From positions 1 through 42,696 of the IMG/VR virus record IMGVR_UViG_3300046005_001932: a stretch of DNA of 42,696 nt; one strand, 5' to 3'. The stretch comes from a virus. The position numbers and the translations under genes are program-made. Position 1 is the stretch's first letter. Every line of letters begins with the position of its first letter. Under the pieces are notes generated by a model. That model was not told the DNA's origin, searched no databases, and saw only the letters and a list, made by a program, of their open reading frames with translations. Below are positions 2,705 to 41,086 of the stretch, piece after piece.

Positions 2705-2888
2705 GGTTTTGCATCCCGCCCGCAACCGACTGAAATGCTTAGAGCCGGTTTCGCCCGGTTTTACAGTCATGGCCCTGAAATCCCGAATATAGGTCCAGCT
2801 TCCCAAGCTTTTCGTGCGGGTTCGATTCCCGCCGCCCGCTCCAATACTTAGCCGGATTGCGCCTGGCGGTTTTGCAAACTGTTTTGCA
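2705..2888. other. attP-like site with arm-type repeats around a tRNA-Gly core (A/B junction)
   Basis: The core is the tRNA-Gly 3' half. On its left, in phage A DNA, are GGTTTTGCA (2705-2713) and GGTTTTACA (2757-2765). On its right, next to the integrase, are GGTTTTGCA (2868-2876) and TGTTTTGCA (2880-2888), all in the same orientation. Repeats on both sides are expected of attP (or the middle junction of tandem prophages), whereas attL or attR would have host DNA on one side. Arm function is inferred from position and repetition. Confidence 0.6.
2799..2842 (+). pseudogene. tRNA-Gly(CCC) 3' fragment (attachment core)
   Basis: The sequence contains an anticodon loop TTCCCAA, a T arm GCGGG-TTCGATT-CCCGC, an acceptor strand CGCCCGC and encoded TCCA. 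The D arm and 5' acceptor strand are missing, and the 5' side of the anticodon stem pairs for only three bases, so identity with a real tRNA starts near the anticodon loop. This is the standard footprint of a tyrosine integrase that uses the 3' half of a tRNA gene. Confidence 0.85.
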
Positions 2889-2899
2889 GCCGCCGTTCC

Positions 2900-3910
2900 C
2901 TATCCCTTCCGGTTCAGCTTCGTAATCATGGCGCTGGCGATGGCTTTTCGCCCGACATACCGGCGGATAATCCGGTCGACCCGGTCCTCTTCCCACGCCA
3001 GCAGCTCGGCAATCTCGCGGTTCGACAGGCCGGCCAGGTGCGCCCGGGTGGCGAAGGTGCCTCGGAGGTCGTGGAAGTGCAGATCCCGGCCGGGCAGGGC
3101 CTCGGCTCGAGCGGTGCGGAAGCCGGTTCCGTTTGGACCGTCCTTCCATGGCCGCCCCTTCTCGTTGGTCAGGACGGTCGTGCTGCGGCGAGGGATGGCC
3201 TCCAGCACGGCCCGGAGGTCATCGTAGAGGGGAACGAAGGCCGACTTGCCGCCGCCGCTCTTGTTGGTCGGGATGACGATCTCGAACTCCCCGACGTGCG
3301 ACCACGACAGCCGGCGCAGGTCCTCGGCCCGGAACCCGGTGTGAGCGGCCAGCGTGACGCCGTGCCAGACCTCGGGTGAGGCGGCCTTGCGGAACGCGGC
3401 GAGGTCGTCGTCGGTCCAGACCACGTCGGACCTGTCGGTGCTGTAGAGGCTCTTGATCCCCTCGCAGGGGTTGGCGCTGATCCGGTCCAGATCGACGGCA
3501 TGGGATAGGACACGGGAAAGAACCTGAATGGCGTAGTCGGCGCTCCTGGGGCGGTCCGCCCACTGGTCGCGCCAGCGTTTGATCTGCGGCCTGATCTTTT
3601 CAGGATGATCGAACAGCCCGACCCGGTAGTCACCGAAGCGATCGACAACGCGATCCAGCCACGGCGCCCATATGCGCCGGGTCGTGTCGGCCAGGCCCGT
3701 GAAGGCCGGTGCTGCCCGGTATTGCGCGACCAGGCCCCTGATCTTGCCGTCGTCGCTCACCTTTCGGCTGGCCAGCGCATCGGCATAGGCGGCCATGAAC
3801 TCAGGCGATCCGGGATTGGCCGGCAGCCGAGGCCCGCCGCGCCATGCGTAGTGATAGGTCCGGCCCTTCGCCTTGACCGTGAAGACCCCTTTAAGGGCGA
3901 CCTTGACCAT
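2900..3910 (-). CDS. int: Tyrosine-recombinase integrase of phage B
   Basis: The likely start is the ATG at 3910 (product beginning MVKVALKGVF), giving 336 residues; a longer frame upstream only overlaps the preceding gene. The catalytic domain shows box I HTGFRAEDLRRL, box II HFHDLRGTFATR with the HxxR pair, and a C-terminal RRYVGR with the nucleophilic Tyr. An N-terminal SAM-like core-binding region spans about residues 70-180. It lies 58 bases from the tRNA-Gly core and its arm-like repeats. As the last gene of the PL operon it would be expressed after induction, with the small upstream gene as a possible excisionase. Confidence 0.92.
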   Translation of the reverse strand: MVKVALKGVFTVKAKGRTYHYAWRGGPRLPANPGSPEFMAAYADALASRKVSDDGKIRGLVAQYRAAPAFTGLADTTRRIWAPWLDRVVDRFGDYRVGLFDHPEKIRPQIKRWRDQWADRPRSADYAIQVLSRVLSHAVDLDRISANPCEGIKSLYSTDRSDVVWTDDDLAAFRKAASPEVWHGVTLAAHTGFRAEDLRRLSWSHVGEFEIVIPTNKSGGGKSAFVPLYDDLRAVLEAIPRRSTTVLTNEKGRPWKDGPNGTGFRTARAEALPGRDLHFHDLRGTFATRAHLAGLSNREIAELLAWEEDRVDRIIRRYVGRKAIASAMITKLNRKG

Positions 3911-4103
3911 GACGCGCCTCCAGACGCGCCAGCTCCAAGTCCAGCGCGTCGTCATTGGCCGCAGTCGGGTCGCCAAAGTCCAGAGTGAACCCGCCGTCGC
4001 CGGCCGCGCGCAGGGCCCGGACCTGCAGGCCATGCTCCGCGGCCCATGCGTAGGCGGTTTCCAGATCCCGGCGCCGCAGCCCTGGTCGTTTCGCTGCGGT
4101 CAT
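3891..4103 (-). CDS. Small pre-integrase protein, candidate excisionase
   Basis: The ATG at 4103 overlaps the upstream stop (ATGA) and gives 70 residues. The protein begins with a basic RRRDLETAYAWAAEHGL helix, has a strand ending DGGFTLDFG, and ends in an acidic/basic LELARLEARHG helix. Phage C has a protein of the same layout in the same place (42112-42309). A gene of this size that is translationally tied to int, at the end of the leftward operon, is a natural candidate for a recombination directionality factor. That function is inferred from position only. Confidence 0.6.
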   Translation of the reverse strand: MTAAKRPGLRRRDLETAYAWAAEHGLQVRALRAAGDGGFTLDFGDPTAANDDALDLELARLEARHGQGRP

Positions 4104-4516
4104 CCGTCCACCCCCTCCCGCGCAAGAAGGGCGAGACACTGGTCTGCCTTGTCGAGCGAGGGCGTCATGTCGCTGTGCTCCGCAACGGTAAGGCGCGCGT
4201 CATCTTCGTTCTTGCCGTCCAGCATTTGCAAATGAACGCAGGCGTCAAACTCTGCCCACTCTTGAGGCTCAAACAGTCGCGCCACCTTCTCCCGCAGCCC
4301 TACCATAGAGGGGGCTGGGGATGCGTAGGGAGGCTGATGCGCCTCATAGGTATGGCCGCAGACCGAACAGTCGCCCATCGCCATGATGTCGGGATGGTAG
4401 TCATGCGGATGAGTGCCCGGCCCACGCCAAGCCACCGGCGCGGAGGGAGAGACGGGGTCGGTGCTAACTTTCCAGTCGCCCAGTTTGTCGTAGAATGGGA
4501 GTATGCTCATACTCAT
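4100..4516 (-). CDS. Hypothetical protein with CxxCGH zinc-knuckle-like motif
   Basis: This 138-residue protein has a CSVCGHTYEAH segment at about residues 50-60, which could bind a metal. The C-terminal half is helical and acidic. Bases 4278-4381 are identical to the end of the window in phage C, while the following part of the gene is replaced there by an unrelated segment before similarity resumes at the ALLAREGV C-terminus. It is coupled to both neighbours by four-base overlaps. Function unknown. Confidence 0.65.
   Translation of the reverse strand: MSMSILPFYDKLGDWKVSTDPVSPSAPVAWRGPGTHPHDYHPDIMAMGDCSVCGHTYEAHQPPYASPAPSMVGLREKVARLFEPQEWAEFDACVHLQMLDGKNEDDARLTVAEHSDMTPSLDKADQCLALLAREGVDG
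4278..4381. repeat. 104-bp block identical to 42593-42696
   Basis: This stretch inside the CxxCGH gene is the same base for base as the last 104 bases of the window, in the same orientation. The copy in phage C may continue beyond the window. It marks recent exchange, or a shared parent, between phages B and C. Confidence 0.9.
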
Positions 4517-4929
4517 GCCCCTCCCTTCAGGCTTGCAAGGGCAGCTTGGGCGATGTCAGCCGCGTCGAGGCGCGCCGCTCTGGCTCCTCGGTCGAACTCA
4601 TCGACGGGGCCGACCGAAAGCGCGGGCAGGCCCTCAATCTCAGCCAACGCCACCCGCATCACCTCCCTATCAAGGGAGAGGGCGAGAAGGGTGTGGATGT
4701 CGCGCTGGGTGACCAAAACCCATCCGCTCCCGGCGTAACCAACGTGACCGACCTCTGTGGAGTTGACCGCGTCGGTCAGCCGTTCGATTGCCCCAGCCAC
4801 GTCCGAGGGGGCTGCGGGAATGGGAGAGGCAACCGCCTCCCACTTGTCGCCCTCCAGCTCACGCTCGATGAAGCGGTACTCCTTGCCGCCCATCATGCGG
4901 ACCTCGCCGGGAATGGGGCTGTCAGTCAT
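4513..4929 (-). CDS. Hypothetical early phage protein
   Basis: This 138-residue protein has a charged N-terminus containing GEVRMMGGKEYRFIE, a middle segment GSGWVLVTQRDIHTLL, and an Ala-rich helical C-terminus. It is coupled to the gene below by ATGA and its start overlaps the TM-peptide stop. I do not recognise the family. The Ala-rich tail with regular hydrophobic residues resembles other phage accessory proteins in this operon. Confidence 0.6.
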   Translation of the reverse strand: MTDSPIPGEVRMMGGKEYRFIERELEGDKWEAVASPIPAAPSDVAGAIERLTDAVNSTEVGHVGYAGSGWVLVTQRDIHTLLALSLDREVMRVALAEIEGLPALSVGPVDEFDRGARAARLDAADIAQAALASLKGGA

Positions 4930-7676: not shown

Positions 7677-7695
7677 TGGTCGGCTCCATCTTGGT

Positions 7696-8154
7696 TCATT
7701 CCGCCGACTTCATCGGCTCCATACCCACCGCTCCAGCTTCCCCGCCGGCGGCTTGTCCCTGGTACGCAGCAAAGTGAGCGGCGGCGGTGGCATAGGCGTC
7801 CTTGCCGAGCAGGGCCCAGAACGGCTTTTCACCGATGCGGTGCTGTTCGGCGTGATGGCCGGCGCACAGCGGGTTCCCGTGCCTGTCGTGGTTTTTCACG
7901 CTGCGGCCGAAGCTGTTCGGGATCCCGGCGACGCGGTAGCTGATGTGGGCGTGTTGGACCGGGCCGTCGCAGCCGCCCATGTGGCGGGCCTCGCAGGGCT
8001 GGCGGCGAACGAACTGGCAGAAGCCGTTGTCGCGTTCGCGCCCGCGGTCCGCCTTCGGGCTCTTCGGCCGGGCCCTGGTCGCGGCTTGACGGGCCTCGCG
8101 CTGGATGCGCTTGGCCTCGCTCACGATGGCGCGCTGTTCGGCGGAAAGGGTCAC
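7696..8154 (-). CDS. HNH-type nuclease-like protein (DUF968-like)
   Basis: This 152-residue protein has a basic N-terminal helix, then a Cys/His cluster: FCQF, CDGPVQHAHISYR, and PLCAGHHAEQH. The spacing of the Cys and His residues fits the zinc-bound HNH-like fold of phage DUF968-type proteins that sit beside Bet-type recombination genes, where they may process recombination intermediates. It overlaps the bet stop/start by four bases, so it belongs to the recombination module. Confidence 0.7.
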   Translation of the reverse strand: MTLSAEQRAIVSEAKRIQREARQAATRARPKSPKADRGRERDNGFCQFVRRQPCEARHMGGCDGPVQHAHISYRVAGIPNSFGRSVKNHDRHGNPLCAGHHAEQHRIGEKPFWALLGKDAYATAAAHFAAYQGQAAGGEAGAVGMEPMKSAE

Positions 8155-8900
8155 GCGGCGTCGCCCGGGAAGGCGTCATCGGCCGCAGCGACTTCCTCAA
8201 CCTCGACGGTCTCGGCCTCTTCGGTCGTGAAGGGATAGGCGTCTCCCGCTTCCACGTTGACCGCGGTGAAACCCTCGGCCGTCGCATCGGCTTCCTGCGG
8301 CGCCGCAAGACGAGCGGCCAGGTTCGGAGCCTCGCGCGCCGTCACATCCTGCACGGACATCTGGCGCTCGTATTCGTCCTGCTCGACGATGCCGGAGAAG
8401 CCAAAGGCATAGCGGGCGCACTGGATCATCGCCTTGTGGCGCAGCATCCGGCGCGGCCAAGTCTTCCACACCTCGGTGCCGCGCCGGCACTCGGCCATGT
8501 ATTCGGTGGCCTCAATCGAGCGGCTGCGGTCCTTTCGGTGCATCCGGCAGGTGATGGCGATGATCTCCTCACCCTCGCGCACGTCCTCAAAGTCCATGCC
8601 GTCGAACTGCGGATGGTCATTGATGATCCGGGCCCAGCCGTCGATCGACACGATGGGCTGGATGCCGCCGCCCTTAGCCGGGAAGGCGTAGAGCTCCTTC
8701 GTCATCGGATTCAGGCCGTATTCCTTCGCGACCAGCAGGAACGCGGCGAACTCTTCGCGGGAGACGTTGCCCTTGCAGACGGTGGCGCGAAGGGTCGCCT
8801 CGAAGGCGGCCGGCTCCATCCCATATCGGCCAGACATATCGACCAGGACGGAGCGCGGCTGGCGCTCGGGCAGGGTCACGACGACGGTTTGATCGGTCAT
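8151..8900 (-). CDS. bet: Single-strand annealing protein, Bet/RecT family
   Basis: This 249-residue protein matches Bet-type annealing proteins: KEYGLNPMTKELYAFP, IQPIVSIDGWARIINDHPQF, CRMHRKDRS and a WPRRMLRHKAMIQCARYAFG segment. It would anneal single strands made by the adjacent exonuclease during phage recombination. The last 45 residues are acidic and low-complexity, a common place for partner or SSB binding. The gene follows the exonuclease by two bases in the PL operon. Confidence 0.9.
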   Translation of the reverse strand: MTDQTVVVTLPERQPRSVLVDMSGRYGMEPAAFEATLRATVCKGNVSREEFAAFLLVAKEYGLNPMTKELYAFPAKGGGIQPIVSIDGWARIINDHPQFDGMDFEDVREGEEIIAITCRMHRKDRSRSIEATEYMAECRRGTEVWKTWPRRMLRHKAMIQCARYAFGFSGIVEQDEYERQMSVQDVTAREAPNLAARLAAPQEADATAEGFTAVNVEAGDAYPFTTEEAETVEVEEVAAADDAFPGDAA

Positions 8901-8902
8901 GG

Positions 8903-10585: not shown

Positions 10586-10608
10586 AGGGCTCTCCCGTTG
10601 TTGGAAGA

Positions 10609-11807: not shown

Positions 11808-12485
11808 CTAGAACCTGGTGATCTTCGCGATAAGCAGGCCGGTGACTTCGACTTGTAAGTCCGATCCGCTGTCATCGTCCAATCGCACGGGATCCTTCCA
11901 GCGCGGGTTGTTAGACCGCGGCCACAGCACAAGTCCGTCGTCGGTCACCTCGACCTCCTTAAGGGTAATCTCCCGCAATGAGCCATCATCGCGGGCCCGC
12001 GTGACTTCAACGATCATGCCGCTGTTCAGGTTAACGCCAGAGCCAACAATCTCGACTATGTGCGCAAGGTCTCCGGGATAGATGTTGCGGGCGTTCATTG
12101 AGTCGCCCCTTACCTCCCGCAGCCACTGCCGGGCCTGCGGATAGCGCCGGTCTAGTGCGACAGCTATCATTTGCGGCTCATCCTGTCCGCTGTCGTCCAG
12201 GGCCAGCCAGGCGCCAGCTTGCACCGGGCCGACAAGTGGAAGTTCGGCCAGTTTTTCTCCGCCGACCGCGTCCGGCGTTTCGACGCCCGACATCAGCTCA
12301 CCAACCGCCACACCCAAGTGTTCGGCGATCTTCGCCATGGTGTCGCCGCGAGCGTTTTTGCTTTTCCCCGACAGAATATCTCGAACCAGCGTGTCATTGC
12401 TCCCAACGGCACGAGAGAGCGCGCGCGCGGTGGTTCCGCGCTCCTGAATGAGTTGCCGCAGCCGGTCTCGGTCGATCGAAATCAT
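11808..12485 (-). CDS. cI: CI/LexA-type repressor with S24 autopeptidase
   Basis: The start was set at the ATG at 12485 (MISIDRDRLR), giving 225 residues; the upstream extension would read through the operators. An N-terminal HTH spans residues 12-62 (ALSRAVGSNDTLVRDILSGK). An Ala90-Gly91 cleavage site lies in PVQAGAW, the catalytic Ser129 in RGDSMNARNIYPGD and the Lys176 in REITLKEV, so it should self-cleave with RecA during DNA damage. The gene lies beside three operators and likely maintains lysogeny by blocking PL and PR. No ribosome site precedes the ATG, which fits a leaderless message. Confidence 0.92.
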   Translation of the reverse strand: MISIDRDRLRQLIQERGTTARALSRAVGSNDTLVRDILSGKSKNARGDTMAKIAEHLGVAVGELMSGVETPDAVGGEKLAELPLVGPVQAGAWLALDDSGQDEPQMIAVALDRRYPQARQWLREVRGDSMNARNIYPGDLAHIVEIVGSGVNLNSGMIVEVTRARDDGSLREITLKEVEVTDDGLVLWPRSNNPRWKDPVRLDDDSGSDLQVEVTGLLIAKITRF

Positions 12486-12492
12486 GCTGCGG

Positions 12493-12521
12493 ATACTGCC
12501 GCAGGGGGTTATTTCCCCTAA
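12493..12521 (-). promoter_or_regulatory. Promoter PRM for the repressor (leaderless)
   Basis: On the minus strand TTAGGG (12521-12516) and CAGTAT (12498-12493) are 17 bases apart. The expected start of transcription falls at or within a base or two of the repressor ATG. The match to consensus is only moderate. Operator ORa lies in the spacer. Confidence 0.5.
12505..12518. promoter_or_regulatory. Operator ORa (repressor-proximal)
   Basis: GGGGTTATTTCCCC keeps the outer arms of the operator consensus but differs in the left inner bases. It is inside PRM, so binding here would switch off the repressor gene, as lambda OR3 does. Confidence 0.65.
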
Positions 12522-12535
12522 GAGGGATGTTCCCC
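12522..12535. promoter_or_regulatory. Operator ORb (central)
   Basis: GAGGGATGTTCCCC keeps the TTCCCC arm and a weaker left arm. It is between the -35 elements of PRM and PR, where a bound repressor could block PR and touch polymerase at PRM. Confidence 0.6.
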
Positions 12536-12565
12536 TTGACGGCGGGGGAAGTTTCCCCCTATCAA
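12536..12565 (+). promoter_or_regulatory. Promoter PR (leaderless cro)
   Basis: TTGACG (12536-12541) is followed after 18 bases by TATCAA (12560-12565). The transcription start would fall at about 12571-12572, at the Cro-like ATG. Operator ORc fills the spacer. It drives the rightward replication and late genes. Confidence 0.65.
12545..12558. promoter_or_regulatory. Operator ORc (Cro-proximal)
   Basis: GGGGAAGTTTCCCC is the exact reverse complement of OL1 and OL2 and lies inside PR, so it is probably the strongest repressor site of the right operator. Confidence 0.8.
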
Positions 12566-12570
12566 GTGGC

Positions 12571-12792
12571 ATGACCATTGAACAGTTCATTGCCAGGTGT
12601 GACCGCTACTGCAAGGCAGCGGGCGTCTCCCGTGTTTGGCTGTCGAAGCGGTTGTTCGCCGACACAAACCGGCTGTCGGACTTGTCAAGCGGATCGTCGG
12701 ACGTGGGCGTGAAACGCTTAGCGCGCGCCGCGGCTGATCTAGCGGCATTGGAAGCCGCTAACGACACCACACCCCATTCGGAGGCCGCATGA
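12571..12792 (+). CDS. Cro-like regulator
   Basis: This 73-residue protein is encoded divergently from the repressor, beginning right after PR. A helix-turn-helix is likely in [20 protein letters not shown], and a helical Ala-rich tail follows. Size and place fit Cro, the repressor of the lysogenic circuit. There is no ribosome site before the ATG because the promoter -10 element ends only five bases upstream, so it is probably translated from a leaderless message. The stop overlaps the next ATG. Confidence 0.7.
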
Positions 12793-19050: not shown

Positions 19051-19159
19051 GCGGGGGGTGGTCAAGTCGCTGGAGTCCGCAGCCAGTGGACCGGCGGGGG
19101 CCAACAAACTTATCGCTAATCCAGTTTTCTCGCGCAGGCGCGCGTGAGGCGGAGGTCAG
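19051..19159. other. Non-coding spacer before terS, candidate cos region
   Basis: This 109-base spacer between HNH and terS begins with a G run GGGGGGTGGTCAAG and holds an imperfect dyad (GTCC/GGAC around 19078-19095). Cos-type HK97 relatives place their packaging site here. No cut site can be proved from sequence. The final bases hold the GGAGG ribosome site of terS. Confidence 0.35.
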
Positions 19160-19633
19160 ATGGCCGGACGCAAGCAGCGCATCGACAGCACTACGGCGGC
19201 GGTCGAGGTTATGGTGAAGGCGGCGCGGGACATCCAGCCGCCGGCACACGCGCCGCTTGATGATGACGCCCTGCCCTTCTGGGATGACATCATTTCAGCC
19301 CGCGCGAAGTCGGAATGGTCGGGTCATGACCTGGCCTGCGCCTCGGATCTTGCGAACGCGATGGCGATGCTGGTCGAGCAGCGACGGATTCTCCGGAAAG
19401 ACGGGGTGACGACTGTCGGCCCGAAGGGCGCCTTGATGGCGCACCCGCGGGTCTCTGTCGTTCACGGCCTCCACGCCCAGATCAAGGCGGCGCGGCAGTC
19501 GCTGAACATCCACGGCCGGGCGGCTGGCGAGGCCCGCGATGTCGGAGCGCGTCGGGTTCAGGCCAAAGAGATCGAGGCGGGCTCTCCGCTGGCGGGTGAT
19601 GATCTGCTGGCGAGGCCCGAAGTTTACCAGTGA
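19160..19633 (+). CDS. terS: Terminase small subunit (P27-like)
   Basis: This 157-residue protein has ALPFWDDIISARAKSEWSGHD and LANAMAMLVEQRRIL, then DGVTTVGPKGALMAHPRVSV, features seen in P27-type small terminases. A GGAGG site precedes the ATG. It should bind the packaging site and recruit TerL, whose gene begins with an overlapping GTG. Confidence 0.8.
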   Translation: MAGRKQRIDSTTAAVEVMVKAARDIQPPAHAPLDDDALPFWDDIISARAKSEWSGHDLACASDLANAMAMLVEQRRILRKDGVTTVGPKGALMAHPRVSVVHGLHAQIKAARQSLNIHGRAAGEARDVGARRVQAKEIEAGSPLAGDDLLARPEVYQ

Positions 19634-21171
19634 GGGCGGCGACACGCGGCGAGCGGGTCATCGCGTTTATCGAGACCTACATCCGGGTGCCCGAGGGCAA
19701 GCACGTCGGCCAGCCGCTGAAGCTGGCGGAGTTCCAGCGCCGGTTCATCCTTGAGGTGTTCGACAATCCGAAGGCAGTCACCCGCCGGGCCTACCTGTCG
19801 ATGGCCAGGAAGAACGCCAAGACGGCGACCATCGCGGCGATTCTGCTGGCGTTTCTGGTCGGGCCGGAAGCGAAGCTGAACAGCCAGATCATCTCCGGCG
19901 CCAACGCGCGGGAACAAGCGGCTCTGGTATTCAAGCTGGCCTGCAAGATGATCGCGCTGAACCCGGCGCTGCGTCAGCTCACGCGGATCATCCCGTCGTC
20001 AAAGACGATCATTGGGCTGACCATGAACGTGGAATACCGGGCCATCGCGGCCGAGGGTTCCACAGCCCACGGACTATCACCACTGCTGGCAATCCTCGAT
20101 GAGGTCGGCCAGATCAGGGGAGACCACAGCGACTTTGTCGAGGCTATCGAGACCGGCCAGGGCGCGCACGAAGCGCCTCTGCTGATCGCGATCTCGACGC
20201 AGGCCCCCAGCGACGCGGACCTGTTTTCAATCTGGCTGGACGACGCTGAGCGCGGGAGGGAGCCCTCCATTGTCAGCCACGTCTATGCCGCGCCGGCCGA
20301 TGCCGACCTCGAGGACCCGAAGGCTTGGGAGGCAGCGAACCCGGCCTTGGGCTTGTTTCGCGATCTCGACGACGTTCGCCAACAGGCCGCCGCCGCCGCC
20401 GCCATGCCGTCCAAGGAAAACGGCTTCCGCAACCTGACACTCAATCAGAGAGTGACCCGGTTTACCCCGTTCGTCAGCCCCTCAGTCTGGAACGCCTGCG
20501 CCAGCCCTGTCGACGAGGCGGCTTTCTTCGAGGGCCCCGTCTATGGCGGGCTTGACCTGTCACGCACGACCGACCTGACCGCCCTGGTCCTTATTACGGA
20601 AAAGGACGGAATCTGGCACGTCAAGCCGGTGTTCTGGACCCCGGAGGCCACGCTGGCTGACCGGGCGAAGCGGGACCGGACGCCCTATGAGGCATGGGTT
20701 CGCGACGGCTTCATGAACGCCACGCCGGGCCCCGCGGTGGAATACGGATTTGTCGCGCGAGACATCGCGAAGATCACCGAGGGCATGGACGTTCGCAAGA
20801 TCGGCTTTGACCGGCACCGGATGGACATCCTGAAGGGCGAGCTCGACCGGATCGACGTGGTCCTTCCGTTTGAGCCGTTCGGCCAAGGCTTCGTCAGCAT
20901 GGCGCCGGCCATCGACACGGCCGAGATCCATTTCCTGCGCGGGCAGGTCCGCCACGGCGGCCACCCCGTGCTTCTGAACAATGCGGCCAACGCGGTCGTG
21001 ACATTCGACCCAGCAGGCAATCGCAAGCTGGACAAGGCTCGCTCGACCGGCCGCATCGACGGCATGGTCTCGCTGGTCATGGCCATGGGTGTCGCGGCGC
21101 AAGACGTGGCCACGCCTGAGGCTGCCTCGCCCTGGGACGACCCGACCTATAGCCTGATGGGGGCCGCATGA
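19630..21171 (+). CDS. terL: Terminase large subunit
   Basis: This 513-residue protein starts at GTG. The ATPase domain shows a Walker A-type LSMARKNAKTA at about residues 56-66 and a Walker B LLAILDEVGQ at about 150-160. The nuclease domain shows GGLDLSRTTDLTALV at about 305 and a late DGMVSLVMAMG Asp. It pumps DNA into the prohead and cuts it. Length is normal for the HK97/phiE125 type. Confidence 0.95.
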   Translation: MRAATRGERVIAFIETYIRVPEGKHVGQPLKLAEFQRRFILEVFDNPKAVTRRAYLSMARKNAKTATIAAILLAFLVGPEAKLNSQIISGANAREQAALVFKLACKMIALNPALRQLTRIIPSSKTIIGLTMNVEYRAIAAEGSTAHGLSPLLAILDEVGQIRGDHSDFVEAIETGQGAHEAPLLIAISTQAPSDADLFSIWLDDAERGREPSIVSHVYAAPADADLEDPKAWEAANPALGLFRDLDDVRQQAAAAAAMPSKENGFRNLTLNQRVTRFTPFVSPSVWNACASPVDEAAFFEGPVYGGLDLSRTTDLTALVLITEKDGIWHVKPVFWTPEATLADRAKRDRTPYEAWVRDGFMNATPGPAVEYGFVARDIAKITEGMDVRKIGFDRHRMDILKGELDRIDVVLPFEPFGQGFVSMAPAIDTAEIHFLRGQVRHGGHPVLLNNAANAVVTFDPAGNRKLDKARSTGRIDGMVSLVMAMGVAAQDVATPEAASPWDDPTYSLMGAA

Positions 21172-22412: not shown

Positions 22413-22998
22413 GGCCGAGACCCGTTCGGTCAGCCTTCCCGTTGAGCAGCGGTCGGACACCATCGTCGGCTATGCGGCGGTATTCGGCGGCGAGGCTGAC
22501 ATCGGCGGTTCGTTCCGCGAGGTCATCGCGCCGGGCGCCTTTACCGAGACGCTGAAGACGGCGGACGTGCGGGCGTATTTCGACCACGACCGGGGCCGGG
22601 TTCTGGGCCGGTCCAAGGCCGGGACGCTGCGCCTGAAGGAAGACGCCAAGGGCCTGGCGGTCGAGATCGACCTGCCCGACACCTCGGACGGCCGGGATGT
22701 GCGCGCCCTGCTCGAGCGCGGCGACATTGACGGCATGAGTTTCGGCTTTGTCGTCACTCACGACGAATGGGACGAGACCGAAGACCCGCCGATGCGGACG
22801 ATTCACGCGGTTTCGCTGCGCGAGGTGTCCGTGGTTTCGGAGCCTGCCTATGGCGACACGTCCATTGCGCTGCGGGCGCTCGACGCCAAGCGCGAGATGA
22901 CCAAGGCGGAACGGGCCGAACATAACCGGCTGAAGGCCGAGGCTCGCATCGCTGAACGCAAGGCCGCTGCTGAGCAACGCTTCCGCCGCATCGGCTGA
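22384..22998 (+). CDS. Prohead protease (HK97, S78 type)
   Basis: This 204-residue protein has IVGYAAVFGG, the catalytic His in RAYFDHDRGRVLGR (His68) and the catalytic Ser in DGMSFGF (Ser119). It removes the scaffold domain of the capsid protein. The ATG at 22384 overlaps the portal end and lacks a good ribosome site; a TTG at 22396 is preceded by GGAGGG and may be the true start. A charged helical C-terminus (ERAEHNRLKAEARIAERKA) may be a self-cleaved or capsid-binding tail. Confidence 0.92.
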   Translation: MEGPLTQVREAETRSVSLPVEQRSDTIVGYAAVFGGEADIGGSFREVIAPGAFTETLKTADVRAYFDHDRGRVLGRSKAGTLRLKEDAKGLAVEIDLPDTSDGRDVRALLERGDIDGMSFGFVVTHDEWDETEDPPMRTIHAVSLREVSVVSEPAYGDTSIALRALDAKREMTKAERAEHNRLKAEARIAERKAAAEQRFRRIG

Positions 22999-23057
22999 CA
23001 CTATTTCCCGGCCGTCACAGGCCGGAGCCCATCATCCGCCCTTGGGAAAGGCATCGA

Positions 23058-23083
23058 GGCTCGCCATCCCGGCGGGCCTTTTT
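23058..23083 (+). terminator. Intrinsic terminator between protease and capsid genes
   Basis: GGCTCGCC (23058-23065) pairs with GGCGGGCC (23071-23078) with one G-T pair, loop ATCCC, followed by TTTTT. It would reduce upstream read-through unless antitermination is active. Confidence 0.7.
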
Positions 23084-23101
23084 GCTTGAAAGGCATCCCC
23101 A

Positions 23102-24361
23102 ATGTCCACCGAACTGCACGAAAAGCGTGGCCGTCTGGTCACCCAGGCCCGCGAGGCCCTCGAAGAAATCAAGACCAACACCGACGACAGCCGTGCTGCT
23201 GAACTGAACCAGCGCCACGACGCGATCATGGCCGACTTCGACAAGATCGACGGCCAGATCGAGCGCGAGGCCCGCGTCGCCGCTGCCGAAGACCGTGCCG
23301 CTGAAGCCCGCGCCAAGCTGCGTCCGATCCCGGGCGACAGCACCGCTCGCGCCGCTGACGAAGGCAAAGCCCCGGAATACCGCGACGCCTTCTACGCCAT
23401 GCTCCGTGCCGGCGGCAACGTGTCGGACCTGTCCGGCGAAGAGCGCGCCGCCCTGAAGGCCGGTGTCCAGCACGACGCCGAATTCCGCGCCCAGACGGTC
23501 GGCACCAACTCGGCCGGCGGCTTCGTCGTTCCCGTCACCCTGGCCGACATCATCGTCAAGTCGATGGCCGCCTGGGGCCCGATGTACGACGACGACATCT
23601 GCACCACCATCAACACCTCGACCGGCGAGCAGATCAACATCCCGACCGTCAACGACGTGTCGACGGCGGTCGCCAAGACCACGGAAGGCTCCGCGCTGAC
23701 CGATGACGGCGGCGTGGATGTCACCTTCGCCCAGAAGAACCTGAACGCCTTCCTGTTCGACACCGAGTTCGTCCGCTGGTCGCTCGCCCTGTCGCAGGAC
23801 TCCATCTTCAACATGGAGCAACTGCTGGGCGAACTGCTGGGCGAACGCCTCGGCCGCCGCGCCAACACCGAGCTGACGACCGGCGACGGCACGGGCGATC
23901 CGAACGGCATCGTGACCGCCTCGACCCTCGGCAAGACCGCCGCGGCTGCCGGCGCGATCACCGCCGACGAACTGATCGACCTGCAGCACTCGGTCGATCC
24001 GGCCTATCGCCAGTCGCCCAAGGCCCGCTTCATGTTCAACGACTCGACGCTGGCGGCCATCCGCAAGCTGAAGGGCGGCGACGGTCAGTACATCTGGCAG
24101 ATGGGCGACATCCGCTCGAGCGTCCCCGGCACCCTGCTGGGCTCGCCCTACTCGGTGAACCAGGCCGTGGCCTCGCTCGGCACCGGCAACAAGCCGGTCA
24201 TCTTCGGTGACTTCGGCAAGTATTACGTCCGCAAGGTGGGCTCGCCCATCATCGGCGTGATGCGCGAACGCTTCTGGCCGGATCTGGGCATCGCCGGCCT
24301 GATCCGCTTCGACGGTGAACTCGGCGACACCGCCGCCGTCAAGCACCTCATCAACGCCTGA
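23102..24361 (+). CDS. Major capsid protein (HK97 fold)
   Basis: This 419-residue protein has a charged helical N-terminal region (about residues 1-85) that should act as scaffold and be cut by the protease, then NSAGGFVVPVTLADIIVKSM, which begins the HK97 E-loop/N-arm region, and later SPKARFMFNDSTLAAIRKLKG and a C-terminal FWPDLGIAGLIRF. Codon use is highly biased to GC-ending codons, as expected for the most abundant phage protein. The gene is bracketed by two terminators. Confidence 0.95.
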   Translation: MSTELHEKRGRLVTQAREALEEIKTNTDDSRAAELNQRHDAIMADFDKIDGQIEREARVAAAEDRAAEARAKLRPIPGDSTARAADEGKAPEYRDAFYAMLRAGGNVSDLSGEERAALKAGVQHDAEFRAQTVGTNSAGGFVVPVTLADIIVKSMAAWGPMYDDDICTTINTSTGEQINIPTVNDVSTAVAKTTEGSALTDDGGVDVTFAQKNLNAFLFDTEFVRWSLALSQDSIFNMEQLLGELLGERLGRRANTELTTGDGTGDPNGIVTASTLGKTAAAAGAITADELIDLQHSVDPAYRQSPKARFMFNDSTLAAIRKLKGGDGQYIWQMGDIRSSVPGTLLGSPYSVNQAVASLGTGNKPVIFGDFGKYYVRKVGSPIIGVMRERFWPDLGIAGLIRFDGELGDTAAVKHLINA

Positions 24362-34522: not shown

Positions 34523-34921
34523 ATGACGCCTGGAACCCTGCCGATCACCGTCTATCGGAACACGCCCTATGTGGAGTCAATCCGCTTTGTCGGCCTCGAC
34601 TTCACGGGCGGCACGTTCGCGCTGCAAGTCCGCGCCCTGCCCGGTACGGCCGGCTCGGCGCTGATCGGGCTAACCAACCAGACCGCCGGGACGCAGGGTC
34701 TGTCGGTGGCCGTGACGGAAGAAAGCGGCGTCGATGTTTCGACCCTGACCATCCAGATCGACGAGTCCACCATAGACGCCCTGCTGCCCGCCTCGACCAA
34801 CGGTCAAAAGGCCGGGACGGACGTGGTCCTCTACTACGACCTCATCATGACCGGGACCGGCCTGACGAAGGCCCGATACCTTGAAGGCACATTCACCATC
34901 GCAGAGGGAGTGACGGTCTGA
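34523..34921 (+). CDS. Fibre-associated beta protein
   Basis: This 132-residue protein is beta-rich: PITVYRNTPYVESIRFVGLDF, FALQVRALPGTAGSALIGL and GTDVVLYYDLIMTGTG. It is encoded between two fibre genes and its stop overlaps the esterase ATG. Proteins of this kind may be tail baseplate spacers; the family is not certain. Confidence 0.55.
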   Translation: MTPGTLPITVYRNTPYVESIRFVGLDFTGGTFALQVRALPGTAGSALIGLTNQTAGTQGLSVAVTEESGVDVSTLTIQIDESTIDALLPASTNGQKAGTDVVLYYDLIMTGTGLTKARYLEGTFTIAEGVTV

Positions 34922-36909
34922 TGGCTATCGCTGAAGTCACCGTCGTCAATAATGCCGTCACGGTCACGGTTGAAGGCGCCGCCCTGCTGGCCCCACTGGT
35001 CGCCTCGGCCACCGCCTCCGCCGCAACGGCCACGACCAAGGCGAGCGAGGCCGCGGCGTCGGCCGCCAGCGCCGCTGATGCCGTTGAGCAATCCACCGAT
35101 GTCATCAACCCGACCACGGTGACCCGCCGCTACGGCCCGCTCGCCCTGGGCACCAACATCGCGGACTTCGTGGAGAACTATTCCTGGCTGCTTTGGCAGG
35201 CCACGGAACGGACGACGATCACTGAAATCGGCCTGACCGTTGCGGCGGTTGGTTCGGGCGCTGCGTCTTTTTTCGTTGCGACGGGCGACCCTGAAAGCGG
35301 CAGCATGACCTTCGTGTCAGCGACCGCGCTCCCGACGATTGTCTCGACGGGCGCGCAGGTCTGGACGACGCCAACGCTGCCGGAAATCCAGCCGGGCCAG
35401 TGGGTCGGCCTGACCTTCCCGTCCGGTGGCCCGACTGTTCGACGCCGGTATGGGCGGACCTATCAAAGGTCACCTGCGTTCACGACCGGAACGGTTGCCT
35501 TCAGCGTCGCGCCCGGCCTTGATGCCTACTTCCTGACATCCGAGCCGTCTTACGCTGTTGAGATCGAGGCACTCTCGCCCGAGGTTCAGGCGGCGCTTTC
35601 GGTTGCCCCCGCCAGCGCGGAGACCCAGACCCTTTGGACCGGCTATCAAGGCGGTCTGACTGTCGCGACAACGGGGTATAGCGCGGGCAGCGTTATCTAT
35701 ATCGACGCTGCGAAATATGCGGCCAGCATCACCGGGCTGAAGTTCCGCGTGAACGCGGTCGGGAACGGTCTAGCGAACGTCATGGTCATGCGCGGCGACG
35801 TCGTGACCGGGCGTCCGACGGTTGTTTACGAAGAGGCGCTTCCGACGATTAGCGCAATCGGTGAGGCGAGCTTCACCGCGCCGACCGATTTCGCTCCGTA
35901 CTTCCTGCGGCGTGGAGACCTCGTTTGTGTTGTCTCGCAGGTCGGCGGCCCCACCCTTGGCACCATCGAAACGTCAACCGCCGACACGTTCTATTCAGTC
36001 TTCGGCAACCCTCTGTACCAGGGGAACAAGGCGGCATTCACCACGACAGCAAACCGCATCGCGGCGGCGCGCTTTAGCCAGTCGGTTCAGAACCTGAACC
36101 TGCCAGTGCCGACCACTCCGCTGATGTGGGATATGTTCCTGCTCGCCGGTCAATCGAACATGGTGGGCAAGGCGTCAGCCGGACAGACCCCGATCAAGGC
36201 GGGCATCGCGAAGCAGTATTACAGCAGCGCGCTGACCGACCTGACCGGCGACCCTGTCGGCGCTGCTGACACCGGCTCGATGTGCCCCGCCTTCGCCGCC
36301 GAGTATTACCGCCGCACCGGGCGCGGGGTGATCTTCGTCCCGGCTGCGGTTCTGGGTTCGGGCCTTCAGTCGGTGACGGGTGGCGGCGTGTCCAACACCT
36401 GGAGCGCGGCGGCCGGGACCGGCGGCGCGGCCTATCGTGTCGCGGCCATCACCGCGCTGAACGCGGCCAAAACGGCGGCGACGGCAGCGGGCTTGGCATG
36501 GCAGTTTGCTGGCGTCCTGTGGTGCCAAGGCGAGGCGGATGGTGACGCCATCGGAACCAGCGTCTCCGGGGCCAGCAAGGCGGGCTATATCAGCGAGTTC
36601 GGCACCCTGATCGCCTATTTCGAGACGCAGACCGGCAGCGCGACCGGGCAGATGCCGATGCTGATTATCCGCACCGGCACCCGCAGCCCGAACAGCGGGG
36701 CCTATGTCGCCGCCTATCAGGATATTCGCGATGCTCAGGACACCTGTGTTCGCACCTATCCCGGCGCGTACATGGCCTTCACCGGGGCGATCAATTTCCT
36801 CGGCCGGAACATGATGCAGGACACCTACCATTGGAACCAGACCGTCCAGAATGAGGTCGGTGTCTCGACGGCAATGGTCGCGGCTTCGGTCTGCGTCGGC
36901 CGCGCTTAA
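34921..36909 (+). CDS. Tail fibre with SGNH/sialate O-acetylesterase domain
   Basis: This 662-residue protein has an Ala/Thr-rich collagen-like or coiled N-terminus (residues 20-60), a long beta-rich spike region, then an SGNH hydrolase: DMFLLAGQSNMVGKASAG with the catalytic Ser (about residue 410), VLWCQGEADGDAIG with Gly/Asn-block residues, and DTYHWNQT with Asp and His near the end. It probably removes O-acetyl groups from surface polysaccharide. The last 121 residues recur in phage A at the window start. Confidence 0.9.
   Translation: MAIAEVTVVNNAVTVTVEGAALLAPLVASATASAATATTKASEAAASAASAADAVEQSTDVINPTTVTRRYGPLALGTNIADFVENYSWLLWQATERTTITEIGLTVAAVGSGAASFFVATGDPESGSMTFVSATALPTIVSTGAQVWTTPTLPEIQPGQWVGLTFPSGGPTVRRRYGRTYQRSPAFTTGTVAFSVAPGLDAYFLTSEPSYAVEIEALSPEVQAALSVAPASAETQTLWTGYQGGLTVATTGYSAGSVIYIDAAKYAASITGLKFRVNAVGNGLANVMVMRGDVVTGRPTVVYEEALPTISAIGEASFTAPTDFAPYFLRRGDLVCVVSQVGGPTLGTIETSTADTFYSVFGNPLYQGNKAAFTTTANRIAAARFSQSVQNLNLPVPTTPLMWDMFLLAGQSNMVGKASAGQTPIKAGIAKQYYSSALTDLTGDPVGAADTGSMCPAFAAEYYRRTGRGVIFVPAAVLGSGLQSVTGGGVSNTWSAAAGTGGAAYRVAAITALNAAKTAATAAGLAWQFAGVLWCQGEADGDAIGTSVSGASKAGYISEFGTLIAYFETQTGSATGQMPMLIIRTGTRSPNSGAYVAAYQDIRDAQDTCVRTYPGAYMAFTGAINFLGRNMMQDTYHWNQTVQNEVGVSTAMVAASVCVGRA
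36543..36909. repeat. Copy of the phage A esterase end (1-367)
   Basis: Base 1 of the window corresponds to 36543 and the two stops coincide (TAG in A, TAA in B). Only one difference is seen in the first 180 bases, after which substitutions become frequent. Sequence past the stop is unrelated in the two phages. Confidence 0.9.
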
Positions 36910-36953
36910 ACCAGCCCAAGCACCACCAATCTCTTAGAGCGAGTGACCCGCTA

Positions 36954-37187
36954 ATGACGTTGCATTCCGACGCCCGCAAGCTGAACTGGTCAATGATCGG
37001 GGTGATTATCGCCCTGATCGTTCAGGCTGCGGCGCTGATCTTCTGGGGCGGCGGGCTTAACCAGCGCGTGTCGAACCTGGAGCGCGTCGTTGCCCCTCTG
37101 GCCGATGGAACCCTCGCCCGTCTGGACGAGCGGACAAAGGCCATGAAGGAACAGCTCGACCGTATTGAGCGGGAAGCGGGCCGGTGA
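36954..37187 (+). CDS. XhlA-like holin accessory
   Basis: This 77-residue protein has an N-terminal membrane segment (SMIGVIIALIVQAAALIFW) followed by a coiled coil (QRVSNLERVVAPL, LDERTKAMKEQLDRIERE). The layout fits XhlA or a spanin-like accessory. It shares the RLDERT block with the phage A protein at 1133-1321. It starts 44 bases after the esterase gene and overlaps the next gene by four bases. Confidence 0.65.
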   Translation: MTLHSDARKLNWSMIGVIIALIVQAAALIFWGGGLNQRVSNLERVVAPLADGTLARLDERTKAMKEQLDRIEREAGR

Positions 37188-37477
37188 CCGACCTGCAAGA
37201 CCCGCTTCCGGAGGCCTCGTTCTTCTACCGCCGGCTGCTGACGTTCGGCTCGGTCGCGGCGTGCCTGCTGCTGGTCTGGCGGCTGACCTATGTCATCCCC
37301 GAGAATGACGCTCTGGGGCTTTGTCAGGCCCTTCTGCTGTTTTCGGCCCTGATGGTCGTCCTCTATGCGGCAGGGGCCTCAGCGGGCGAGATTTTCGGCC
37401 TGCTGGCGAACCTGAAGCTCAGGCTTCGTGGACCCCGTCCGGCAGAGCCTCCGACCGTGCAGACCGAGGGCGATTAG
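37184..37477 (+). CDS. Holin-like membrane protein
   Basis: The GTG at 37184 overlaps the previous stop. This 97-residue protein has two hydrophobic segments (about residues 20-38 and 45-65) and a charged C-terminal tail, fitting a holin in the lysis cassette. It does not look related to the phage A holin-like protein. Confidence 0.6.
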   Translation: MTDLQDPLPEASFFYRRLLTFGSVAACLLLVWRLTYVIPENDALGLCQALLLFSALMVVLYAAGASAGEIFGLLANLKLRLRGPRPAEPPTVQTEGD

Positions 37478-37697
37478 CGACTATCTGCGCCGACCGCACT
37501 CGCCTCCCGATATTGTACGGAAAGAGCGGATGCTGGTCCCAAGCCCAGAAGTCGCTTTGGCCGTAGAAAAAGCAGATGGGGCATTTGCCTGACCCCTCCG
37601 GCGAGGTTTCGTGAGGCTGGCGGCATCGGGTGCAGCGCGGCCAGCCCTGCGCCTGTCCGGTCGTAATCCAGGTACCGTCATCGCGGGCCAGTACCAT
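37419..37697 (-). CDS. Zinc-ribbon-like protein on the opposite strand
   Basis: A minus-strand frame starting at 37697 encodes 92 residues with PRCTRCRQPHETS and GKCPICFFYGQSDFW, two CxxC knuckles about 17 residues apart, which suggest a zinc ribbon. It fills most of the 314-base gap (37478-37791) between holin and endolysin that has no plus-strand gene, and overlaps the holin gene end by 59 bases. It has no clear ribosome site. It may be a lysogeny-expressed accessory gene. Confidence 0.45.
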   Translation of the reverse strand: MVLARDDGTWITTGQAQGWPRCTRCRQPHETSPEGSGKCPICFFYGQSDFWAWDQHPLFPYNIGRRVRSAQIVANRPRSARSEALPDGVHEA

Positions 37698-37791
37698 GAC
37701 TAGGCGTCCTGCGCGTCTGATTGCGCTCCAGCCGTTACCTGCGCGTCGCCTTCCCATCCCCAAAACCTAGCAGAATCCAACGGAGAAAGCC

Positions 37792-38175
37792 ATGGCCTAT
37801 GCCTTCGGCGCAACTTCAACCGCGCGTCTCGCTCAGGTGCATCCCGACCTCCAAAAGGTCGCGCATCTGGCCCTGTCCTACAGCCCTCACGACTTCACTA
37901 TCACCGAGGGCATCCGGTCACTGGCCCGGCAGAAGCAGCTTAAGGCCGCTGGCGCATCGCAGACCCTGAACAGCCGCCACATCACCGGCCACGCGCTCGA
38001 TTTCGCCGTGCTGGTCGCTGGCAAGGTCCGGTGGGATTGGCCGCTCTACCCGCCCGTGGCTGACGCCTTCAAGCGCGCGGCGAAGGAACTGAACATCCCG
38101 ATCATCTGGGGCGGCGACTGGAAGTCCCTGCGAGACGGTCCGCACATCGAACTCGACCGGAGGAAGTACCCGTGA
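37792..38175 (+). CDS. Endolysin, M15 peptidase
   Basis: This 127-residue M15 enzyme has EGIRSLARQKQL, the zinc site SRHITGHALDFAV and the final ligand block DGPHIEL, and no signal peptide. It cuts peptidoglycan peptide bonds to lyse the host. It is a shorter relative of the phage A enzyme at 1626-2048. A GGAGAAAG ribosome site precedes the ATG. Confidence 0.9.
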   Translation: MAYAFGATSTARLAQVHPDLQKVAHLALSYSPHDFTITEGIRSLARQKQLKAAGASQTLNSRHITGHALDFAVLVAGKVRWDWPLYPPVADAFKRAAKELNIPIIWGGDWKSLRDGPHIELDRRKYP

Positions 38176-38276
38176 TCTCCCTCCTCCTCGGCATCGCTAT
38201 CGGCTGGTTCTGCGGCATCGCCAGCGTGTTCATCGCTATCCTGTGGGCCTACCGGAAGGGCGTGGGCGGATGCTAG
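38172..38276 (+). CDS. 34-residue membrane peptide of the lysis cassette
   Basis: A GTG at 38172 overlaps the endolysin stop (GTGA). The product is one hydrophobic segment (LLLGIAIGWFCGIASVFIAI) with a small basic tail, ending at 38276 over the next ATG. Position and topology suggest a small holin, antiholin or pinholin. Confidence 0.55.
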   Translation: MISLLLGIAIGWFCGIASVFIAILWAYRKGVGGC

Positions 38277-38665
38277 CCCGCATCCCGTGGCGGCTGATCG
38301 GCTACGTCCTCGCTGCCGTGCTGGCCCTCGTAACTGTCGTGTCCTTCATCTCCGACCCGTTCGGCATCCGGTCGTTCTTCCGGGATCGGCAGGAAACCCG
38401 CGCGGAGACTGCGGAGAGCGATGCGTCTGCGCGTGGGCTTGAAGTCGAAGGCGAGCGCGCACTGTCAACCAGGGTTGACACCTATCACACCCAAGTTGTC
38501 GAGGTCCGGGACATGACAGCCCGCGCCGAGACCGAAGCACGGAGCGCCCCCGATGCCGCCCAACCCCTTGCGGCTGATCGCGCCGCTCGCCTTGCTCGTC
38601 ACGATGACGGCCTGTGCGACACCCGGCCCTCAGTCTGTGGAGCCGCCCCGGCTGAGCCTTCCTAA
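38270..38665 (+). CDS. i-spanin (Rz-like)
   Basis: The start at 38270 gives 131 residues with an N-terminal anchor (YVLAAVLALVTVVSFI) and a charged periplasmic helix (RAETEARSAPDAAQPLAADR). It overlaps the o-spanin gene by 113 bases in another frame, as in Rz/Rz1. The C-terminal residues include two Cys that might form dimers. Confidence 0.75.
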   Translation: MLARIPWRLIGYVLAAVLALVTVVSFISDPFGIRSFFRDRQETRAETAESDASARGLEVEGERALSTRVDTYHTQVVEVRDMTARAETEARSAPDAAQPLAADRAARLARHDDGLCDTRPSVCGAAPAEPS

Positions 38666-38882
38666 AGCGGCGGAAACGACCTGCACTCTCGACCGCCTGC
38701 CTCCCGCCCCCACGGAGGCCGATCTTGAGACGGGTTACGCCCGGCGCGGTGCCTCAATCGTCCTGTGTGACGCCGCCCGCGATCTAGCCGTCCAGACCCT
38801 GATCGCAGAGCGCGAGTTGCAGGACCGCTGGCGCGAACAACAAAACCCCCGCCCTTGGTGGCGCATCATCACGGGTGGCTGA
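38553..38882 (+). CDS. o-spanin (Rz1-like lipoprotein)
   Basis: This 109-residue protein has a lipoprotein signal with a VTMTAC lipobox (Cys21 or so). The mature part is Pro-rich (PPRLSLPKAA and RLPPAPTEADLE), a feature of Rz1 proteins. It should pair with the i-spanin across the periplasm. Confidence 0.75.
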   Translation: MPPNPLRLIAPLALLVTMTACATPGPQSVEPPRLSLPKAAETTCTLDRLPPAPTEADLETGYARRGASIVLCDAARDLAVQTLIAERELQDRWREQQNPRPWWRIITGG

Positions 38883-40069
38883 TGGCCCTGTCCTTCGTTC
38901 CAATCGAAGACGGCGAATATCCCGAATGGGTCACACCAACACAAGTCCGCTATCTGGAGGCGGTCAAGAAGTACGGCTCCAACGCAGAGGCAGAACGCCA
39001 ACTCGGTCTGTCCAAGGACGCGATTGGAAAGTCGCTCCGGGCCTATCTCCGGATGGCCGCGCTGAAGGGTCATGCGCCGGGGCATTTTGTCAGCGGCGTG
39101 GCTCCGGGATACCGCCAAGGCAAAGTAACCATCCAGAGGGCCGCTGACGGGTCCGTAGAGCGTACATGGGAACGACAGCACCCTGACGCGGAAGCCCAAG
39201 CCGAACGCCTACAGGCTATCAGGGATGGGCTTCTTGATAGCCTACAGCCTATCGCTCCGGTCGCGCCTCCGATCTATGCGGATGACGACCTGTTGACGGT
39301 CTATCCCGAGGGCGACGGACACGCTGGGCTGTATGCGTGGCGCGAGGAAACCGGGCAGGGCTTCGACCTGGTTGAGTACGAGCGGGTCAACAACGCCGCG
39401 ACCGACCGCCTTGTCGCCTCGGCCCCGCCGTCAGCTCATGCGCTGTACATTGACCTCGGGGACGCGCTCCACGCCGACAACAACGCCAGCCGCACGAAGT
39501 CCGGTCACCATCTGGACACGCATGGCCGTCACGCCGAAGTCGTCCGCGTGGTCATCCGCTGCAAGCGATACCGGGTGGCCCGGATGCTGGAGCGGCATCG
39601 TCACCTGACCGTCCGCATCAATCCGGGCAACCACGACGGCATAACCGCCCTGATGCTCGCTGAGATGATGGCGGCGATCTACGAGAACGAGCCGCGCGTC
39701 ACAGTCATTACCAGCCCGAACCCCTACTGGTTCCACGGCTTCGGTTCCAACCTGATCGGGACGACGCACGGCGACGGGGCAAAGGGTGCGAACCTTCCCC
39801 TGCTGATGGCGGTGGACTCGCCGGCCCTGTGGCTGGCCTCCGAACACGGCTCGCGGGTCTGGTTTGTCGGCCACGTCCACCACAAGGACATCAAGGACTA
39901 TCCGGGCGTCACGGTGGAATACTGCCGGACCCTCGCAGCCCCGGACATCTGGAGCCATGCGAGCGGGTATCGGTCGAAGCGGTCGATGGAGGCCGTGACC
40001 TATCACCGGCAGGACGGGGAGGTGGAACGGCACACCTGCTCACTGGCGAGGCTTGACCGTGCAGCCTGA
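38882..40069 (+). CDS. Metallophosphoesterase with N-terminal HTH
   Basis: The ATG at 38882 overlaps the o-spanin stop and gives 395 residues. An N-terminal HTH (residues 15-55: VKKYGSNAEAERQLGLSKDA) precedes a linker and a calcineurin-type phosphoesterase: YIDLGDALHADN, NPGNHDG, THGDGAKG and FVGHVHHKD supply the metal ligands. The pairing of DNA-binding HTH and phosphoesterase suggests a nuclease or DNA repair factor. It sits past the lysis genes at the end of the late operon, a common place for morons. Confidence 0.85.
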   Translation: MALSFVPIEDGEYPEWVTPTQVRYLEAVKKYGSNAEAERQLGLSKDAIGKSLRAYLRMAALKGHAPGHFVSGVAPGYRQGKVTIQRAADGSVERTWERQHPDAEAQAERLQAIRDGLLDSLQPIAPVAPPIYADDDLLTVYPEGDGHAGLYAWREETGQGFDLVEYERVNNAATDRLVASAPPSAHALYIDLGDALHADNNASRTKSGHHLDTHGRHAEVVRVVIRCKRYRVARMLERHRHLTVRINPGNHDGITALMLAEMMAAIYENEPRVTVITSPNPYWFHGFGSNLIGTTHGDGAKGANLPLLMAVDSPALWLASEHGSRVWFVGHVHHKDIKDYPGVTVEYCRTLAAPDIWSHASGYRSKRSMEAVTYHRQDGEVERHTCSLARLDRAA

Positions 40070-40626: not shown

Positions 40627-40805
40627 TCGCCTTCGTCTCCCCAATCGTCCGCGATGCGCTTGCACATTTTGATGAGGCGCTGGGCGGCTTTGCGCTCGCT
40701 GTCGCTCTCAATGTCGCTGACCGAGTTGAGTTCGGAAAGTGCGTCGCGGCAGTCGCGCAGGTCTTCGAGGGTATTCTCGAACCGGCAGTACGACATGTTG
40801 GCCAT
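40623..40805 (-). CDS. MSYCRFENT-type phage protein
   Basis: The ATG at 40805 gives 60 residues starting MANMSYCRFENTLEDLRDC, a signature widespread in small phage proteins of unknown role, followed by an acidic/basic helix ending RIADDWGDEGE. A GGAGAAG ribosome site precedes it and a good promoter lies 40 to 70 bases upstream. Confidence 0.7.
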   Translation of the reverse strand: MANMSYCRFENTLEDLRDCRDALSELNSVSDIESDSERKAAQRLIKMCKRIADDWGDEGE

Positions 40806-40844
40806 CTGTCTTCTCCATCCGGGCTTCATGCCCCTGATAACGAC

Positions 40845-40873
40845 AATATGCCCTAGGGCGGAGAGTCCGTCAA
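40845..40873 (-). promoter_or_regulatory. Promoter of the right-end leftward operon
   Basis: On the minus strand TTGACG (40873-40868) and CATATT (40850-40845) are 17 bases apart. It is not flanked by the GGGGAA/TTCCCC operator, so this operon may be active in the lysogen. Confidence 0.6.
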
Positions 40874-40895
40874 CCCCGCTTAAAATAGCGTCGGT

Positions 40896-41086
40896 CGGTT
40901 TGCTCGCCTCCGGTAACCAACTGAATCTATTGGAGCCGGGAGGGGGCCGGTTTGTAGCTATGTGGTTGATTTTCTAGGGCGCGACTCTGATTAAAAGTCA
41001 GATGCTCTAACCAACTGAGCTAAGGGCGCGTACTTTAGTTTCAACGACTTAGCCGGTTTGCTCGGAACCGGTTTGTGACCGGTTTG
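40896..41086. other. attP-like site of Lys specificity (B/C junction)
   Basis: CCGGTTTG occurs at 40947-40954 on the phage B side and at 41053, 41068 and 41079 on the integrase side, with a partial copy at 40896. All have the same orientation. The core between them is the tRNA-Lys fragment. CTAGGGCGCG (40974-40983) and CTAAGGGCGCG (41020-41030) form a direct repeat around the core. The copies at 41053-41086 lie in the end of the integrase gene and encode its repeated QTG tail. Confidence 0.6.
40986..41029 (-). pseudogene. tRNA-Lys(TTT) 5' fragment (attachment core)
   Basis: Read on the minus strand: acceptor strand GCGCCCT, TA, a D arm GCTC-AGTTGGTTA-GAGC, and an anticodon arm TCTGA-CTTTTAA-TCAGA with anticodon TTT. 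After it there is no T arm or 3' acceptor; the sequence turns into phage DNA. It cannot fold into a working tRNA. The 5' half lies on the integrase side. Confidence 0.8.

Follow-up and report, generated by a model that had tools for sequence, protein, structure and literature searches.

Gene content and organization of the record

We analysed the whole of IMG/VR record IMGVR_UViG_3300046005_001932, a viral sequence of 42,696 bp that is listed as linear (hereafter the window). As shown in Table 1, it contains a head and packaging module and early genes, together with two lysis cassettes, two tyrosine integrase genes and, beside each of these, a candidate phage attachment site (attP). Copies are labeled P1 or P2 according to the phage to which they are assigned below.

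Table 1. Predicted features of the window
Feature	Position	Strand	Remarks
3′ end of tail gene (SASA-type esterase domain), P1 copy	1..367	+	1-366 is a second copy of 36543-36908, 94% identity; Pfam SASA in full-length copy
P1 lysis cassette	403..2606	+	membrane ORFs; M15 endolysin 1626-2048 (PHROG 465); lipoprotein 2217-2606
attP-Gly	2705..2888	+	P arm sites 2707, ~2759; shared element ~2724; core 2794-2841; P′ arm sites 2870, 2882
int-Gly, tyrosine integrase	2900..4033	-	Pfam PF00589, PHROG 1; 83% to G001
Small ORF immediately upstream of int-Gly	3891..4139	-	65% identical in G001; no Pfam family
Early backbone start, P1 copy	4108..4381	-	second copy at 42474-42696
RecT/Bet-like annealing protein	8151..8900	-	Pfam RecT, PHROG 252
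CI-like transcriptional repressor	11808..12590	-	PHROG 4
cos region, cut ~19101/19102	19092..19125	+	aligns with left end of HK022 genome
HK97-type head and packaging module (TerS, TerL, portal, protease, major head protein)	19160..24361	+	PHROG matches
Tail gene with esterase domain, full copy	34921..36909	+	3′ end duplicated at 1-366
P2 lysis cassette	36954..38882	+	endolysin 37792-38175 (PHROG 465); spanin-like 38243-38665, 38553-38882; distinct from P1 cassette
SbcD-like exonuclease/phosphoesterase	38855..40069	+	PHROG 704; then attP-Lys and int-Lys, as in G005
attP-Lys	40896..41086	-	P arm sites 40896, 40948; core 40985-41025; P′ arm sites 41054, 41069, 41080
int-Lys, tyrosine integrase	41049..42188	-	PF00589; 36% to int-Gly; frame intact
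Small ORF upstream of int-Lys	42112..42309	-	conserved in Lys-type phages, ~49-63% in G002-G005, G018; no Pfam family
Early backbone start, P2 copy, truncated by contig end	42474..42696	-	42589-42696 is a second copy of 4274-4381, 99% identity

Both termini of the contig lie inside its own repeats, the left one in the 3′ end of the tail gene and the right one in the start of the early backbone. The outermost 82 bases at the left end and 104 bases at the right end match the interior exactly, and identity drops inward; between the two copies of the early backbone start the exact runs are 28 and 104 bases. As the repeats occur at both ends, the record is slightly longer than one genome unit. The cassettes that differ span ~367-4107 (P1) and ~36909-42473 (P2). 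If the backbone is wholly shared, the distances between repeat copies would correspond to genomes of ~36.5 kb (36,542 bp) for P1 and ~38.3 kb (38,315 bp) for P2. We also attempted to read an assembly k-mer size from the exact end overlaps, and no single k fits both values.

The structural genes resemble those of HK97/HK022-like cos siphophages (Hendrixvirinae). TerL is 56.6% identical to that of HK022 over 98% of the query, the head proteins are of the HK97 type and the cos end is shared. At the same time, the window differs from HK97 and HK022 in its Alphaproteobacterial host range and in integration, tail tip and lysis genes, which are unrelated or distant; any assignment to the Hendrixvirinae is tentative. 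Three relative contigs (L009, L013, and L014) have their position 1 at the counterpart of the left HK022 terminus, and these contig starts are read as marking virion cos ends. Since the HK022 end alignment and the three contig starts agree, the predicted cut is placed at ~19,101/19,102. In cos phages of the HK97 type, sequences to the left and right of cos belong to different virions or to one intracellular molecule. Given the joined cos at ~19.1 kb and a length beyond one unit, the contig is predicted not to be one packaged virion genome.

The tail gene that is partly duplicated at the left end encodes a SASA-type carbohydrate esterase domain at residues 404–651, and its product is possibly a capsule-modifying tail enzyme. 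A scan of genome contigs with the terminase and a scan of viral contigs with the tail gene recovered no relative.

Two attachment sites with different tRNA targets

The core of the left site equals the 3′ part of tRNA-Gly(CCC) and is accompanied by arm sites of the TTTTGCA type, whose positions relative to the core start are -88, -36, +75, and +87. The P′ arm spacing differs by no more than one base in L073 and L082, both of them Brevundimonas prophages, and the attP-Gly spacing is kept in relatives adjoining intact tRNA-Gly(CCC). Relatives of int-Gly with 67 and 65% identity belong to prophages that adjoin intact tRNA-Gly(CCC) genes in Brevundimonas-type chromosomes. In prophages of other species the core within tRNA-Gly(CCC) shows 3–5 mismatches. 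The Gly-type phage G001 (IMG/VR 3300050202_000017) resembles the left module of the window closely, with an 83% identical integrase, an identical 48-bp core and the same arm-site spacing, whereas the remaining genome is almost unrelated.

The core of the right site equals the 5′ half of tRNA-Lys(TTT) on the minus strand. Relative to this core, CGGTTTG arm sites are found at -92, -40, +66, +81, and +92; five copies thus fall within 226 bp, whereas 3000 simulated stretches contained 0.04 copies on average and never more than 2. The arm spacing recurs to within one base in the attP of the phage G005, in attL and attR of the Lys-type prophage G003 and in attL of G018, and the exact core lies inside intact tRNA-Lys in G003 and G018. 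In Brevundimonas UBA986 (L069) a 69% identical relative of int-Lys adjoins an intact tRNA-Lys(TTT) with the exact 41-bp core. In G003 the tRNA-Lys gene is restored by attL, and the host flank past attR matches the sequence upstream of the empty tRNA-Lys in Brevundimonas L118. The exact tRNA half of the window is also present in several Brevundimonas genomes.

As the Lys-type phage carries the tRNA 5′ half (window 40985-41025; compare L033:183-223 and L069:8985-9025), the DNA upstream of the restored tRNA after integration is phage DNA, probably including the promoter. In this respect attP-Lys resembles the islands that carry a 5′ tDNA fragment, a minority (159 of 3919) in the Islander database (PMC4383910).

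Both sites have the properties of a lambda-type attP: an adjoining tyrosine recombinase gene, arm repeats on both sides at fixed spacing and a core matching a host tRNA gene. Judged from their sequences, the two junctions appear to be genuine and complete attP sites of different specificity, at which the integrases are predicted to bind the arms and recombine the core. The first-pass annotation had proposed two sites of different specificity, and the cores, the arm sites and the spacing kept in relatives bear this out. It had also pointed to host chromosome at a core, or an intact tRNA gene, as findings that would speak against its reading. Neither core was seen to adjoin host-like sequence, and ARAGORN detected no intact tRNA gene in the 42,696-bp window; with arm sites on both sides, a captured intact tRNA or a host boundary at the cores is ruled out.

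Comparison of the two sites revealed that the interval between the P-arm sites is 52 bp in both types. Between these sites lies an element, AACC(A/G)ACTGAA, at -73 in Lys (three sequences) and at -71 in Gly (two sequences), corresponding to ~40915 and ~2724 in the window, which is possibly an accessory-factor site. Based on the common interval and element, the two attP sites are probably of common descent and differ in arm recognition and tRNA target. The loose alignment of the two arms, from which shared ancestry had been proposed earlier, is therefore real; the segments concerned (2715-2775 and 40905-40970) are, however, P arms, on the side away from int, and not P′ arms as then labeled. The small ORFs directly upstream of the two integrases look distantly alike, and each is conserved within its own type.

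One feature of int-Lys deserves attention. In its HxxR box Asn replaces His (LNDLRGT vs. HDLRGT in four relatives), and this single-residue change could affect activity. It could be argued on this basis that the right module is inactive, being a captured tRNA fragment beside a decayed integrase, so that only the Gly module works. We regard this as highly improbable: the int-Lys frame is intact, the core and arm spacing are kept with relatives integrated at these tRNAs, and inactivity would leave the anatomy of the contig unchanged.

Assignment of the DNA to two phages

In a free phage genome the attP site lies inside the molecule. This is seen in G005 (IMG/VR 3300017716_002706, 37.1 kb), in which the order is spanins, exonuclease, attP-Lys, int-Lys and small ORF, and which has one integrase of these types. 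G005 shares this module order with P2, with ~70% identity in int-Lys, and differs from the window in its head and replication genes (phrog_156 portal, DnaB helicase) and in having a single integrase. The first-pass annotation had treated the two sites as the bounds of "phage B", here taken to lie between A and C. Since attP is internal to a free phage, as in G005, each site instead lies within a different phage genome. The A|B joint is then a normal junction of the late-attP-int-early type within a single Gly-type phage, P1 (A-late plus B-early), and the B|C joint is that of one Lys-type phage, P2 (B-late plus C-early). With the attP sites so placed, the sole switch from phage to phage must lie inside "phage B", between ~4.1 and 36.5 kb. 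A search for this breakpoint with the partial relatives L007 and L008 covered only 5 kb, where identity was fairly even and no breakpoint appeared. P1 and P2 are new phages, of a known kind, from Brevundimonas-like bacteria.

Another way to account for two modules is a single phage that stably bears two integration modules and two lysis cassettes as a result of internal duplication. In its favor, neither integrase frame is truncated or interrupted, and both retain conserved domains. On the other hand, the repeated flanks keep one order at either side and continue past both contig ends, a hallmark of a second copy of the genome, and two integrases occurred in no relative searched. We thus give this explanation very little probability.

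Origin of the joined sequence

The two attP sites with their specificities, the duplicated flanks and the cos site are shown by the record and its relatives. To explain how they came to stand in one sequence, we favor, with some confidence, the view that two coexisting phages were assembled into one chimeric or consensus contig. According to this model, P1 and P2 would be temperate phages of the HK97-like, cos-packaging kind, closely related to each other and infecting Brevundimonas or near relatives, with a common backbone and exchangeable lysis-attP-integrase cassettes, which would direct P1 to tRNA-Gly(CCC) and P2 to the 5′ half of tRNA-Lys(TTT). Each integrase would bring its own core together with the corresponding tRNA gene, using its own arm sites as a guide. 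Both phages would have been present in one sample, and the assembler would have crossed over from P1 into P2 somewhere in the backbone they share (4.1–36.5 kb), yielding a contig slightly longer than one genome. Chimeric contigs from coexisting viruses that share similar regions have been documented (PMC5610896; PMC10563150).

The contig ends run into the contig's own interior with identity rising outward, the pattern to be expected were P1 and P2 to merge further out. Merging ends alone do not discriminate between an assembly switch and a tandem, as assembly of a true tandem would also stop there. The main alternative is a real cointegrate or tandem, in which a cell infected by both phages, or lysogenic for both, joined P1 and P2 by one homologous crossover in the backbone or through cos ends that are compatible. 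The first-pass annotation had proposed a cointegrate formed by homologous recombination, and the order on which it relied (Gly arm, int-Gly, mosaic genes, Lys arm, int-Lys) holds, and one crossover would produce precisely this arrangement. One sequence carries both attP sites and the duplicated flanks, the flanks of P1 and P2 match, and the unit encodes a RecT annealing protein and an exonuclease. Moreover, the contig is unbroken through cos, so that the cos ends are joined as in intracellular or prophage DNA. Yet a single P1/P2 crossover and an assembly switch yield the identical string, which sequence alone cannot separate, and we judge assembly from coexisting phages the simpler source. Against the cointegrate, host DNA was not noticed anywhere in the 42.7 kb, and two integrases were present in no relative record searched. 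Integrase searches in 131 Brevundimonas genomes yielded a Lys-type integrase in G018 alone and no Gly and Lys integrases in tandem. A single molecule of such length is also not packageable by a cos phage. We therefore consider a real cointegrate unlikely. The assembly switch is favored on the grounds that both ends merge into interior sequence, host DNA was not noticed, none of the relatives searched carries two integrases and the 131 genomes gave no Gly/Lys tandem.

Several points count against an assembly switch. Fewer than 5% of contigs of at least 10 kb were chimeric in simulated viromes (PMC5610896). A short-read assembly would normally be expected to break at a backbone fully shared over 32 kb and not to cross it, and the end overlaps, being unequal, indicate no one k-mer size. 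In addition, exact-pattern scans at both cassette edges revealed no separate parent or sister contigs, although records very close to the window may be missing from the collection scanned.

A stronger version of the cointegrate may also be envisaged, in which two cos phages that differ in tRNA specificity are physically linked as a heterodimer and maintained in the cell, either in tandem as a prophage or as a concatemer. Such an element would possess two working integrases, enter and exit at either tRNA gene and release recombinants with swapped integration cassettes. We find this scenario rather improbable. On the favored assembly reading, a public viral record probably joins two phages, and counts of double-integrase phages or completeness estimates taken from it would mislead.

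Exchange of lysis and integration modules

The record and its relatives show the lysis-attP-integrase cassette moving as a block, with a common attP geometry (the 52-bp interval and the element at -71/-73) and differing arm recognition and tRNA target. The Lys-type prophage G003 (IMG/VR 3300033052_000013) resembles P2 in its integrase (64% to int-Lys), in an identical 41-bp core and in attL and attR with host DNA. It also resembles P1, as a homologue of the P1 lysis lipoprotein adjoins its attR-Lys; it differs from the window in being a single chromosomal prophage with no exonuclease match. Overall, homologues of P1 lysis genes adjoin other att sites, including that of a Lys-type prophage, and in G007 and G009 a P1-type endolysin (86–88%) occurs together with a P2-type exonuclease (79%). 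The mixture of P1- and P2-type genes in G007, G009, and G003, along with Gly-type arms at other tRNA genes (L161), indicates that modules recombine freely among relatives.

The exonuclease-attP-Lys-int-Lys module is found in G005 (L058, L059) with another portal, head and helicase set. Because the head genes of this phage are unrelated to those of the window, the module crosses lineages.

For the Gly type, the arm pair GTTTTGCA-N4-GTTTTGCA accompanies relatives of int-Gly (53 and 47% identity) at other tRNA genes in L161 and L202, so arm recognition seems to persist in these integrases while the core target changes.
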